Notes under the pieces: generated by a model | What the model saw: the letters and a program-made list of their open reading frames with translations, nothing else | Told to the model about the DNA's origin: nothing | Database searches by the model: none | In this document: positions 21,973-25,475 of the stretch, one piece after another | How positions within the stretch are numbered: the first letter of the stretch is position 1 | Layout of the letters: each line of letters begins with the position of its first letter | Source: Streptomyces drozdowiczii | Lineage (GTDB): Bacteria > Actinomycetota > Actinomycetes > Streptomycetales > Streptomycetaceae | DNA length: 64,000 nucleotides | Direction of reading: 5' to 3' | Assembly (NCBI RefSeq): GCF_026167665.1 | Contig: NZ_CP098740.1 | Span: forward strand, 2,480,001 to 2,544,000 | Translations under genes and position numbers: made by a program

Positions 21973-22596
21973 ATGGGCACCGCACGCGACACCGCAGCCC
22001 TCCTCCCCGACCCCGAGGAACTCCGCGCCCACTTGAGGGCACTGGCGGTCCTGGATGCCGCGATCGGCGACGACCCACTGTTCGTCTGCTACACCTTCGA
22101 TACGGCGTGGGGCCCCGACGAGGAAGTGGCCCTGATGAGCAACGGCTCGGGCGACGACTTCTCCGTCCACTTCACCCCGGCCGGCGTGCTCATCCGGGGC
22201 TTCGACCACGAGTCGGCGATGAGCCCGTACGTGAACGAGGAGGTCTGGCCGGGCCTCATCGAGGACGTACCGGCCTCACTGAGCCCGATCCTCCGCGATC
22301 CGGCCTTCCGCGATGAGGACATCGACATCCCACGCGTCACCGCGTGCCTCTGGCAGGAGACCGGCGACCCCCTCTGGCACACCGGCGCATCCATCGACTT
22401 CCCGGCGGACAACGCGTCCCCGGACGGCTCCGGCTTCCTCTTCGGCCTCCTCACGGACCGCTCCCCCGAGGCCGTCCAGGCGTACTTCGAGGACTACTAC
22501 GAACGCCCCGTCCCCCTGGAAGCCATCCACCACGCCCTGACGGGCCTCCCCCTCACCCCTGCGATAACGAAAGCCCTCAGCCGATCCACCCCGTGA
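21973..22596 (+). CDS. hypothetical protein
   Basis: 207 residues with no family I recognise. Acidic, soluble, no signal peptide or membrane helix. Conserved-looking patches are VCYTFDTAWGPDEEVALMSNGSGDDF and DFSVHFTPAGVLIRGFDHESAMSPY, which suggest a beta-rich fold. Codon use is coding-like throughout. The ATG at 21973 lacks a good ribosome site. Its last 20 bases overlap, tail to tail, the 3' end of the next gene on the other strand. Confidence 0.7.
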   Translation: MGTARDTAALLPDPEELRAHLRALAVLDAAIGDDPLFVCYTFDTAWGPDEEVALMSNGSGDDFSVHFTPAGVLIRGFDHESAMSPYVNEEVWPGLIEDVPASLSPILRDPAFRDEDIDIPRVTACLWQETGDPLWHTGASIDFPADNASPDGSGFLFGLLTDRSPEAVQAYFEDYYERPVPLEAIHHALTGLPLTPAITKALSRSTP

Positions 22597-22969
22597 TGGC
22601 ATCGGCCAGCGCCTGGCCGCCCTCCTGAACCGCAGTGCCGACAACCAGTGCGGGCAACGTCCGTGCCAGCTGCAACAGCACACCCTCGTCGGGCGGTGAC
22701 GCGGTGAGCTGGGCGTCGATCGTCTCCGTCATGCCGCGCAGGACGGGCGCGGTGGCCAAGTCCTGCTGGTGCCGCTCCAGTTCGGTGCGGAACGCGGTGA
22801 GCAGGTCGCGTACGTCCTCGGGCCCTGCGGTGTGCCGGACCGACGCCGACTGGTGCACACCGCGGATGTCCCGTCCGACGACGTTCTGAATCGGGGCGAT
22901 GCTGTCGCCGCCGATGTGGATGGCCGAGCTGGGTTCCCTGTCCGGGTCGGGGCGTCGACGGCCGATCAT
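22577..22969 (-). CDS. small protein with N-terminal GD-APIQN-G motif, partner of the membrane protein
   Basis: 130 residues. After a basic start, residues 17-40 (IHIGGDSIAPIQNVVGRDIR and on to Q40) match the last 30 residues of the membrane protein encoded just upstream: identical G, D, A, P, I, Q, N, V, G, I, G, V, Q at matching places. The rest (45-130) is predicted helical. The ATG at 22969 overlaps the upstream stop by one base (TGATG) and has GGAGG 6 bases before it, so the two are translationally coupled. A short shared motif at the C-terminus of one protein and the N-terminus of its partner is how amyloid or RHIM-type signalling pairs are built; that role is inference. Confidence 0.75.
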   Translation of the reverse strand: MIGRRRPDPDREPSSAIHIGGDSIAPIQNVVGRDIRGVHQSASVRHTAGPEDVRDLLTAFRTELERHQQDLATAPVLRGMTETIDAQLTASPPDEGVLLQLARTLPALVVGTAVQEGGQALADAITGWIG

Positions 22970-24768
22970 CACTTGCCTCCTTGGGGTGCGCTGCCCTGGC
23001 TCACGCCACTGATGTTGCTGCCGGCAACGTTCTGGATCGGTGCGTGGTTGTCGCCGTACACCTGGATGTTGGTGATCACAGCAGCCACCTGCTGTTCGTA
23101 GGGGGCGGTATCGACCCCCAGCTCTTCGAGATACTCGGCAACAGTCCGAAAGACACAGGTCTGCATGAGAACGACATGCCTCTTGGCATCGTCGCTCTGG
23201 TGCATGTCCGTGACCTCCTCCATGGAGTAGCGGTCACGCACACTGACGGGGTCCTTCTCCTCGCCCCGGCCGCCGCCGCTCTCTTCCAGGTGCTTCGCCG
23301 GCCCCCGCCCGAAGCGGGCCGCGAACCGCCAGGCAGCCAACGGACCCACCACCGCGTCCAACAAGGACTGCACGGTGAGCCAGCGAAGGAGCCGGAAGTG
23401 CCGGAGCGCCAGCGGCGCGTCCGTCCCGCGCAGCTCGTTGTACACCGGTGTCACGACGTGCGGCCGGACCGTCAAATGGAGTTCCCCGCCCTCCAAGGCC
23501 GCGTGAACGAATACGGTGACCACGACCTCGCCGTCCCAGGTCACGCACTGAGCACGCATATACAGGCGGTCAGGCACACTTGACGGCGATTGCCGGCCCC
23601 GGCCACGAAGTTTCGGCTCCCCCGCCTTGGCGTTTCGCGCACGCCGAAGCCACAGATCCGACGGAAGGCCGACCACATCGGAGGCCGTGAAGCCCGGCAG
23701 CGGTTCGGTGATCTCCTGCGGACCTCGCCCCAGGTCCCGCAGCGCCTCACGCATGCGAGCCAACAGCTCCCGGTCCTCGAACGGTTCAACCGCCCCGTTC
23801 GCGCTCTTGGGCTTCAGCGGAACGATCATGTCCGCGATGCCCCAGACGTAGCGCCCGGCACCGACGAATCGCTCCGGTACGTCGTAAGGCAGCTCGATCA
23901 GCCCCTGCCCGTCCTTCAACCGAGCTATCCGCCGCTTGCCCTTCGGGGCCACCCACGGCAGCCGCCCGGAGGCAATCTCGCCGCCGACGATCCGGCCGAG
24001 CGACGCGCGGGCCACGAGCCGATCCGCGGCAAACACCACGGCTCCGCCGATGAGCAGCACAAACGGCGCGAAGACCAATTCGAGTCGTATGCCGATGACT
24101 TGGCCGCCAATGGGCCATGCGTAGGGAACGACAGCCAGCAGCCACGGCAGGCACAGCACCAAGTACGCCAGGCCGGGCCGGGAAGAACGACCCACTGCCC
24201 TCGGCTTCCGCTCCGCCCGGGCCGCCGCCCAGCGCAGGAAAAGCGCCAGAAGGGCGGCGGTGCCCCAGACCGCAGAAGCCCAAGGAGCGACACTCGCGAC
24301 GGCCACGAACACGAGGAGAAGCGCCGCGCGCCGCGCCCAGCGCCGCCGCCGGACACGAAGACCGTGCGCCGCCACCGGCTCGAGGTCGAACCCGTAGGAC
24401 GGGACCGGCAACGGAGGCCCGTGCACAACATGATCGACGACCCACTGGGCCATCTGCTCCCCCAGAGGGGGACAGTCGTCGCTGCCCTCGAGGTAAATCC
24501 GCCGTCGAGCACTCCGGCGCGGCTTCTCGGGCTTGTCGCCTTTACCCAGAAGCTTGCGCCACCACGCCCTGATGGGCTTCAAGCGGTCAGGGCGCGCATA
24601 CATGCTCTGGCACAACAGCTTGGTCACCACAGATGCCCTGGGGTTCACCTCGTCGCCGCGCGACCCGGCATCGTCCGGCGCCATCCGGTTCTGGCTAGGA
24701 ATCCCCGGAAGCCCTCCCGCCGCCTCGCCCGCATGCCGCTGGGCACGCAGCTCCCGTTCCCGCCCCAT
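22969..24768 (-). CDS. four-helix membrane protein with C-terminal GD-APIQN-G motif
   Basis: 599 residues from the ATG at 24768. The N-terminal about 140 residues are basic and soluble. Four membrane helices lie near 148-164, 167-182, 199-217 and 229-248. A soluble domain of about 320 residues follows (strands such as DRLYMRAQCVTWDGEVVVTVFVHAAL). The last 32 residues carry IQVYGDNHAPIQNVAGSN, the same motif as at the N-terminus of the downstream partner. I recognise no enzymatic motif. A receptor or effector at the membrane that recruits the 130-residue protein through the motif would fit, but this is inference. The start is uncertain; alternatives are 24834 or 24801. Confidence 0.8.
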   Translation of the reverse strand: MGRERELRAQRHAGEAAGGLPGIPSQNRMAPDDAGSRGDEVNPRASVVTKLLCQSMYARPDRLKPIRAWWRKLLGKGDKPEKPRRSARRRIYLEGSDDCPPLGEQMAQWVVDHVVHGPPLPVPSYGFDLEPVAAHGLRVRRRRWARRAALLLVFVAVASVAPWASAVWGTAALLALFLRWAAARAERKPRAVGRSSRPGLAYLVLCLPWLLAVVPYAWPIGGQVIGIRLELVFAPFVLLIGGAVVFAADRLVARASLGRIVGGEIASGRLPWVAPKGKRRIARLKDGQGLIELPYDVPERFVGAGRYVWGIADMIVPLKPKSANGAVEPFEDRELLARMREALRDLGRGPQEITEPLPGFTASDVVGLPSDLWLRRARNAKAGEPKLRGRGRQSPSSVPDRLYMRAQCVTWDGEVVVTVFVHAALEGGELHLTVRPHVVTPVYNELRGTDAPLALRHFRLLRWLTVQSLLDAVVGPLAAWRFAARFGRGPAKHLEESGGGRGEEKDPVSVRDRYSMEEVTDMHQSDDAKRHVVLMQTCVFRTVAEYLEELGVDTAPYEQQVAAVITNIQVYGDNHAPIQNVAGSNISGVSQGSAPQGGK

Positions 24769-24949: not shown

Positions 24950-25219
24950 ATGACGCAGCCGCAACCCATAGAGTCCATCCGCGCCGTACGCGCGCACCTG
25001 GCGGAGGTCGTGGAGCGTGCCGACCGGGACGACGTACCCACCGTGATCACCCGACGGGGCAAGCAGGTCGCCGCCATCGTCTCCATCGAGGTGCTGCGCA
25101 AGTACCAGGAGTGGGAAGAGCGCGAGATCAACCGGATCATCGACGAGCGTATGGCCGACTCCGCACCCGGCATCCCGATCGAGGACGTCATGAGGGAGAC
25201 GCTGGAACGCGGTGAGTAA
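24950..25219 (+). CDS. Phd/YefM-family antitoxin
   Basis: 89 residues. The start SIRAVRAHLAEVVERADRDD and the strand VPTVITRRGKQVAAIVSIEVL are the DNA-binding fold of the Phd/YefM family. The charged C-terminal helix (WEEREINRIIDERM) should wrap the toxin. The ATG at 24950 is leaderless. The toxin gene overlaps its end by 8 bases. Antitoxins of this type repress their own operon. Confidence 0.93.
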   Translation: MTQPQPIESIRAVRAHLAEVVERADRDDVPTVITRRGKQVAAIVSIEVLRKYQEWEEREINRIIDERMADSAPGIPIEDVMRETLERGE

Positions 25220-25475
25220 GTACCGAACCGTCTTTCGCCCCGAGGCGCAGGCCGAGCTACGGAAGATCCCTCGCGGCATGGCCCTGCGCATCCTGGCCAA
25301 ACTGGCCGAGCTGGAGAGCGATCCCCTGGGCTTCAACACCACCGCGCTCGTGTCACAGCCGGACCGTCGCCGCCTGCGAGTCGGCGACTACCGAGTCGTG
25401 TACACGATCGACAACGGAGAGGTCGTGGTGTGGGTCGTCCATATCGGTCATCGCTCCACCGTGTACGACACCTGA
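25212..25475 (+). CDS. RelE/ParE-superfamily toxin
   Basis: 87 residues, normal length. The fold pattern is clear: YRTVFRPEAQAELRKIP, GFNTTALVSQPDRRRLRVGDYRVVYTID, and VVHIGHRSTVYD at the end. The LRVGDYRVVY strand with its Arg residues and the terminal VGHR-like HIGHRSTVY are typical of RelE mRNA interferases that cleave mRNA in the ribosome. GTG start overlapping the antitoxin gene, so coupled. A terminator follows. Confidence 0.92.
   Translation: MSKYRTVFRPEAQAELRKIPRGMALRILAKLAELESDPLGFNTTALVSQPDRRRLRVGDYRVVYTIDNGEVVVWVVHIGHRSTVYDT

Follow-up and report, generated by a model that had tools for sequence, protein, structure and literature searches.

Two overlapping genes on the reverse strand, here called A and B, were studied in a 64,000-nucleotide stretch of the Streptomyces drozdowiczii genome (contig NZ_CP098740.1, positions 2,480,001 to 2,544,000), hereafter the window. 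The product of A is a membrane protein that ends in a motif of about 25 residues, and the product of B is a small helical protein that begins with a copy of the same motif (Table 1). The stop codon of A and the start codon of B overlap by one base in the string TGATG, as the original prediction, made from the letters of the window, had described. The nearest named relatives of window A are in Streptomyces sp. CB01249 and col6, with 91-92% identity in A.

Table 1. Features of the A-B locus and its neighbors, in window coordinates.
Feature	Position	Strand	Details
Gene A	22969..24768	-	599-residue membrane protein; ATG at 24768, stop TGA at 22971-22969 (stop codon included)
Gene B	22577..22969	-	130-residue partner; ATG at 22969 (stop codon included); family homologs found
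Stop-start overlap of A and B	22967..22971	-	TGATG, read from the sequence
Transmembrane region of A	23986..24384	-	Residues ~129-261; model helices and Kyte-Doolittle peaks
Motif copy 1	22996..23067	-	A residues 568-591, IQVYGDNHAPIQNVAGSNISGVSQ; BLASTP alignment and genome pattern scan
Motif copy 2	22850..22921	-	B residues 17-40, IHIGGDSIAPIQNVVGRDIRGVHQ; BLASTP alignment and genome pattern scan
Helical domain of B	22583..22822	-	Residues 50-129; four-helix bundle in the predicted model; slot replaced by TIR or EAD1 in relatives
207-residue protein	21973-22596	+	Convergent with B; no Pfam match
Phd/YefM antitoxin	24950-25219	+	Divergent from A
ParE toxin	25212-25475	+	Divergent from A

Analyses of the two proteins of the window confirmed that the A tail and the B N-terminus have a motif in common. 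BLASTP, run as a single comparison, aligned A residues 568-594 with B residues 17-43 without gaps (14 of 27 identical, E 4e-6). The Smith-Waterman score of the pair was 69, a value reached in none of 20,000 shuffles of the first 100 residues of B (mean 23.3, maximum 59). A DNA pattern for A-P-x-Q-N-V-x-G matched twice in the 7.39-Mb genome, both times within the A-B pair, and a backwards control pattern had no match there. Across 295 Streptomyces genomes the pattern gave 40 matches in 32 genomes, of which 16 were arranged in eight genomes as same-strand pairs with a spacing of about 150 bp and the other 24 were single; the backwards control gave seven matches, never more than one per genome. 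The mean entropy of the motif columns of A in the close family was 0.48, compared to 0.92 over the whole of A, and the motif window ranked only 124th for conservation of 547 24-residue windows, which is not exceptional.

Structure models placed both copies of the motif outside any globular fold. The model of A (mean predicted local distance difference test score, pLDDT, 81.1; predicted template modeling score 0.80) had, from the N- to the C-terminus, helices, three to four transmembrane helices, a cytosolic alpha/beta domain, C-terminal helices and the motif tail. Its transmembrane-region helices spanned residues 129-160, 162-185, 199-213 and 223-261, and Kyte-Doolittle peaks were located at 149-167, 199-217 and 220-238. 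The model of B was a four-helix bundle with block pLDDT values of 94-97. The pLDDT was below 50 in both the A tail (578-599) and the B N-terminus (8-45), indicating that both motifs lie in disordered termini. The C-terminal part of B is fairly hydrophobic, with a maximum 19-residue Kyte-Doolittle mean of at least 1.2 in 87 of 90 B proteins and at least 1.6 in 38 of them. This is compatible with a Bell/HeLo-like membrane-acting effector, in that it would allow such an activity but does not show it.

The pairing of A with B extended well beyond the window. A protein search identified 88 A proteins, window A included, and 80 of the 83 close ones (P0006-P0088) terminated in the motif region, the exceptions being P0045, P0087 and P0088. 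In 26 close-family loci from named genomes, A was followed by B in 24 (including L158, where the scripted B start fell within the motif), one was a fusion (L156) and one ran to a contig end (L149). Five distant homologs (P0089-P0093) were also fusions, in which A, a motif, a linker, a second motif and the B domain followed one another. The earlier claim that the two proteins are otherwise unrelated was therefore correct for the window pair, but these five homologs have both in a single chain. From 99 loci read we obtained 90 A-B pairs, all in Streptomyces; the script placed the B start ahead of the A stop codon in 73 of these and between -20 and +10 bases from it in 80. A search with window A as the query gave A-family matches in 135 of 150 Streptomyces genomes at E values of 0.001 or lower, and an A-family profile matched 142 of the 147 genomes searched in the order, including 10 of 15 outside the genus. 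The subfamily of the window was patchy, with scores above 400 bits in seven of the 150 Streptomyces genomes, its own included.

The sequence of the motif differed greatly from pair to pair, and A and B differed together. Many unlike classes were present across the 90 Streptomyces pairs. In addition to the window class, GDNxAPIQNVxG, they included (A with B) GDNNIIQAVAVG with GSGNIIQSSAVG, TMTGPVQATPFS with HMTAPAQVAPFS, FVGGSVQGNGIAIG with YVGGSVTGNGIAVG, EMGSVQNQPGA with AMGNVQNQPGA and GGVHGSTFAVG with GGVHGSTFAIG, a list that is not exhaustive. Each A tail (65 residues) was aligned to each B N-terminus (100 residues) and the partners were permuted at four levels of redundancy (79, 35, 19 and 8 clusters, one member each, the last being a 50% mean identity cut on the A core). 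Own pairs scored 65-70 on average, compared to 29-35 with other B's. The observed value was reached in none of 10,000 permutations at 79, 35 and 19 clusters and in one of 10,000 at eight clusters, at which level the own B was the best match for six of eight tails. The same was found in 34 pairs from outside Streptomyces (own 66.1 versus 34.9; own best in 17 of 34; none of 10,000 permutations). Six genomes contained two pairs, and in these the own partner outscored the cross partner in all 12 comparisons. Together, these data support the proposal of a two-component device in which a short terminal motif couples A to B. The partners are insulated within genomes, and the motif extends beyond a single orthologous family.

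Codon use argues against DNA homogenization as the source of the match. At residues identical in the two motif copies the codons also agreed in 811 of 1,296 cases (0.626, versus 0.563 expected from pooled codon usage), and in mismatched, between-cluster pairs in 30,998 of 54,938 (0.564, versus 0.530 expected). This slight excess is far below what recent duplication or conversion should give, which indicates that the similarity is held mainly at the protein level.

Analyses of more distant families revealed that the domain behind the motif of B can be exchanged. Four genomes of family f3 (L177, L178, L179 and L182) had an A homolog followed by a motif-matched TIR partner; the L177 homolog aligned to the A alignment with an hhalign probability of 99.9, and the motif scores were 71-102 (other partners, median 25-30). 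The partner domain at all four loci was a CAP12-PCTIR TIR (74.8-91.6 bits, cut-off 24.7), and all four proteins contained the sequence RPNVxxELG, whose Glu we take to be the catalytic residue. A ThsA-Macro gene adjoined each of the four, identified in three by both Pfam (185-196 bits) and PADLOC (245-256 bits) and in the fourth by tblastn (E 7e-96). In family f20, where A was present in 6 of 35 genomes, the partner at five loci consisted of the motif and EAD1 (46.7-55.4 bits, cut-off 24.2) and the sixth (L286) was of the helical type; with B selected by similarity, motif scores of 51-96 were obtained at four of the loci and 36 at the other (L284). Family f19 had A in 60 of 150 genomes, and of six partners scanned, five were DUF5955-like (two over the cut-off) and none had TIR or EAD1. 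Based on the f3, f20 and f19 partners, the matched motif in one receptor family can be followed by a helical bundle, a TIR or EAD1. These relatives bear out the immune link that had been suggested for the pair, and as to roles, where A had been called effector or sensor and B its partner, they point to A as the receptor and B as the effector or adaptor.

Two second Macro genes were observed near TIR-type pairs. One (L293, 11118-12524) had a regulator-like N-terminus joined to a ThsA-Macro domain (175 bits), with BTAD and Trans_reg_C matches below their cut-offs, and the other (L297, 4680-5501) was found by tblastn only. The TIR-type A subfamily (P0094-P0213) also includes many Streptomyces proteins, and its tails are very varied and Asn/Gly-rich.

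From the features that were computed directly, namely the motif match, its co-variation and insulation at the level of the class, the modeled disorder, the gene overlap, the fusions and the swapping of partner domains, we consider it probable that A is a non-NLR membrane receptor and B a dedicated effector or adaptor, recruited through a co-evolving homotypic motif and replaceable by other partners. Direct contact between the motifs of A and B is the simplest account of the co-variation and insulation. In the mechanism that we infer, a trigger sensed by A at the membrane would cause the tails of A to cluster, and the disordered C-terminal motif of A would bind homotypically to the disordered N-terminal motif of B. 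This contact would most likely be templated beta-stacking leading to a cross-beta assembly, as suggested by the length, composition, terminal position and disorder of the motif and its likeness to BASS pairs. The clustered tails would thereby recruit B and gather its helical domains at the membrane, where they might act or recruit further, perhaps on the membrane itself by analogy with Bell/HeLo. In the relatives the same receptor family would recruit a CAP12/Pycsar-type TIR beside ThsA-Macro, or an EAD1 adaptor. Based on those relatives, the window pair is most likely a switch for abortive infection or cell death whose effector is helical.

On comparison with known systems, the A-B pair would work like a BASS or RHIM pair, but membership in either group was not supported. 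BASS NLR-effector pairs (Dyrka et al. 2020) have a 20-40-residue motif at one end of both products of neighboring or overlapping genes, comprise many motif families, occur in multicellular actinobacteria, and have helical-bundle effectors commonly and TIR partners more rarely (PMC7889193, PMC8086366, PMC12261475). The A-B pairs resemble them in the placement of the motif, the number of motif families and the hosts, and their partners, a four-helix bundle in the model of B and a TIR in four relatives, may be comparable. However, A is a multi-pass membrane protein and not an NLR, and 47 A-family members searched at E up to 0.1 matched no Pfam NTPase (NB-ARC or NACHT). In addition, the order is reversed, the motif being at the C-terminus of A and the N-terminus of B in the pairs read, and the candidate amyloid motif of A-B has no BASS family assignment.

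Effector-associated domains (EADs) were proposed to be homotypic coupling adaptors of immune conflict systems, with copies on a core component and an adjacent effector and with adjacent copies the most alike (Kaur et al. 2020, PMC7159879). A second copy on the product of the neighboring gene, with adjacent copies most alike, was likewise found for A-B at the level of the class, and EAD1 itself is the partner domain in five relatives. In contrast to the small globular EADs, the coupling element of A-B is short and disordered, at about 25 residues (pLDDT below 50), and A, a membrane protein with no Pfam match, is not among the core components named in the portions of the source available (PMC7159879). 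The four relatives with a TIR-bearing partner and an adjoining ThsA-Macro gene resemble Thoeris. The layout of type II Thoeris is a TIR plus ThsA-Macro. The TIR of the relatives differs in being of the CAP12-PCTIR type and in carrying a motif matched to the membrane protein A, and neither a TIR nor a Macro was found for the window pair. Lastly, the helical domain of B in some family members resembled Pfam DUF5955 (PF19380), with L272 (32.2 bits) and L264 (27.6) over the cut-off of 27.1, other members under it and no match for window B; the canonical DUF5955 family (in 15 of 16 Streptomyces searched) is encoded elsewhere in the genome and had no motif in the frames read.

Several findings weigh against an immune, motif-coupled receptor and effector. 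The RHIM or BASS membership raised by the original prediction was not upheld: A is not an NLR, and the strict RHIM core consensus, which we take to be [VI]Q[VIL]G..N.[MLIV], occurred in none of the tails and none of the B's of the 90 pairs. A loosened RHIM-like pattern of our own design was present in both members of 39 of the 90 pairs (41 tails and 53 B's), compared to averages of 4.0 tails and 5.6 B's in shuffles. At 79 clusters only 25 of 79 tails matched their own B best, and the specificity of the motif is at the level of the class rather than the pair. The own-pair score was below 50 in six of the 90 pairs and 40 or less in seven of the 34 pairs outside Streptomyces, of which L257, L265 and L275 were at chance level. 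Three A genes with the motif (L087, L091 and L095) had no detectable intact B, indicating that A can lose B or dispense with it. An A paralog of about 570 residues that has neither the motif nor a partner recurs in Streptomyces, with 12 distinct loci read (L025, L027, L101, L198-L203, L214, L216 and L218), one of which (L101, 5806281-5807843) is in the genome of the window; the founding role of A thus need not be immune. Neither the window nor any of the 26 close-family loci had a match to TIR, EAD1 or ThsA-Macro, so the immune role of the window pair rests on its relatives. A mobile setting typical of defense genes was not found, and the A sequences used as queries had no match in plasmid and phage collections; one homolog, P0036, is labeled plasmid-borne by its source.

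We judge it unlikely that A and B are instead a constitutive, non-immune membrane complex of development or the envelope, with the motifs as permanent, non-amyloid docking and TIR and EAD1 as later recruitments. The A-family matches in 135 of 150 Streptomyces genomes, the recurring motif-less paralog, the third gene for a membrane or secreted protein after B in several loci of one group and the well-folded bundle of the B model would all suit such a complex. However, the turnover of motif classes and the patchy subfamily of the window suit conflict systems better, and in relatives the partner is swapped for a CAP12-type TIR plus ThsA-Macro. It is improbable that both motifs are short linear motifs for one shared third protein and make no mutual contact. 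One shared receptor per class would be expected to give the class-level specificity that was observed, but a separate co-evolving third partner would be required for every class, the own score was always higher than the cross score within one genome, and the fusions retain both motif copies in cis. We consider very doubtful a toxin-antitoxin-like pair, in which A would be a membrane toxin capped by the motif of B; the downstream gene is small and overlapping and A is a membrane protein, but an enzyme (TIR) or adaptor (EAD1) in the position of B would be odd for an antitoxin, and three A genes with the motif stand without an intact B. It is scarcely credible that the motif has no function and is left over from tandem duplication or gene conversion involving the 3' end of A and the 5' end of B, for while the copies are only about 150 bp apart and their codon identity is slightly over that expected, between-cluster pairs have a similar smaller excess, the motif columns are conserved and the match is kept in many classes.

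We regard the A-B pair as a probable new form of motif-coupled immune signaling. More tentatively, the family as a whole may be a large actinomycete group of non-NLR membrane receptors with many private, co-evolving prion-like motifs and interchangeable effectors (helical bundle, CAP12-type TIR with ThsA-Macro, and EAD1), that is, an NLR-independent class of amyloid signalosome. Our literature searches, with most subscription papers outside their reach, found no published description of the A-B family. The existence of NLR-independent bacterial signaling amyloids is named as an open question in a 2021 review of amyloid signaling (PMC7889193). The A-B family offers many natural motif pairs with which to ask it, some with an enzymatic (TIR) read-out, in a membrane receptor family whose partner gene is recognizable from its position and motif. 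The motif classes would be mutually insulated coupling tags, useful for studying how templated assembly stays specific.

The toxin-antitoxin pair beside A in the window, which had been noted as part of the setting, is real (Phd/YefM and ParE). A role for it in the device is unsupported. It adjoins A-B only in L133 and L134, the two closest of the 26 close-family loci. The 207-residue protein convergent with B was likewise found only in those two.

Several loci had additional variations around B. A third gene was present 3' of B at L022, L026, L029, L030, L031 and L258, with a start of the YWNEETQRWE type followed by a membrane or secreted part, and at L258 this gene and B were in one open frame. 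By eye, the B proteins of L028, L068, L075, L204 and L254 had two tandem motif-like copies ahead of the helical domain. Broken copies were also observed: B was frame-shifted at L019, and A had an internal stop at L008/L153.

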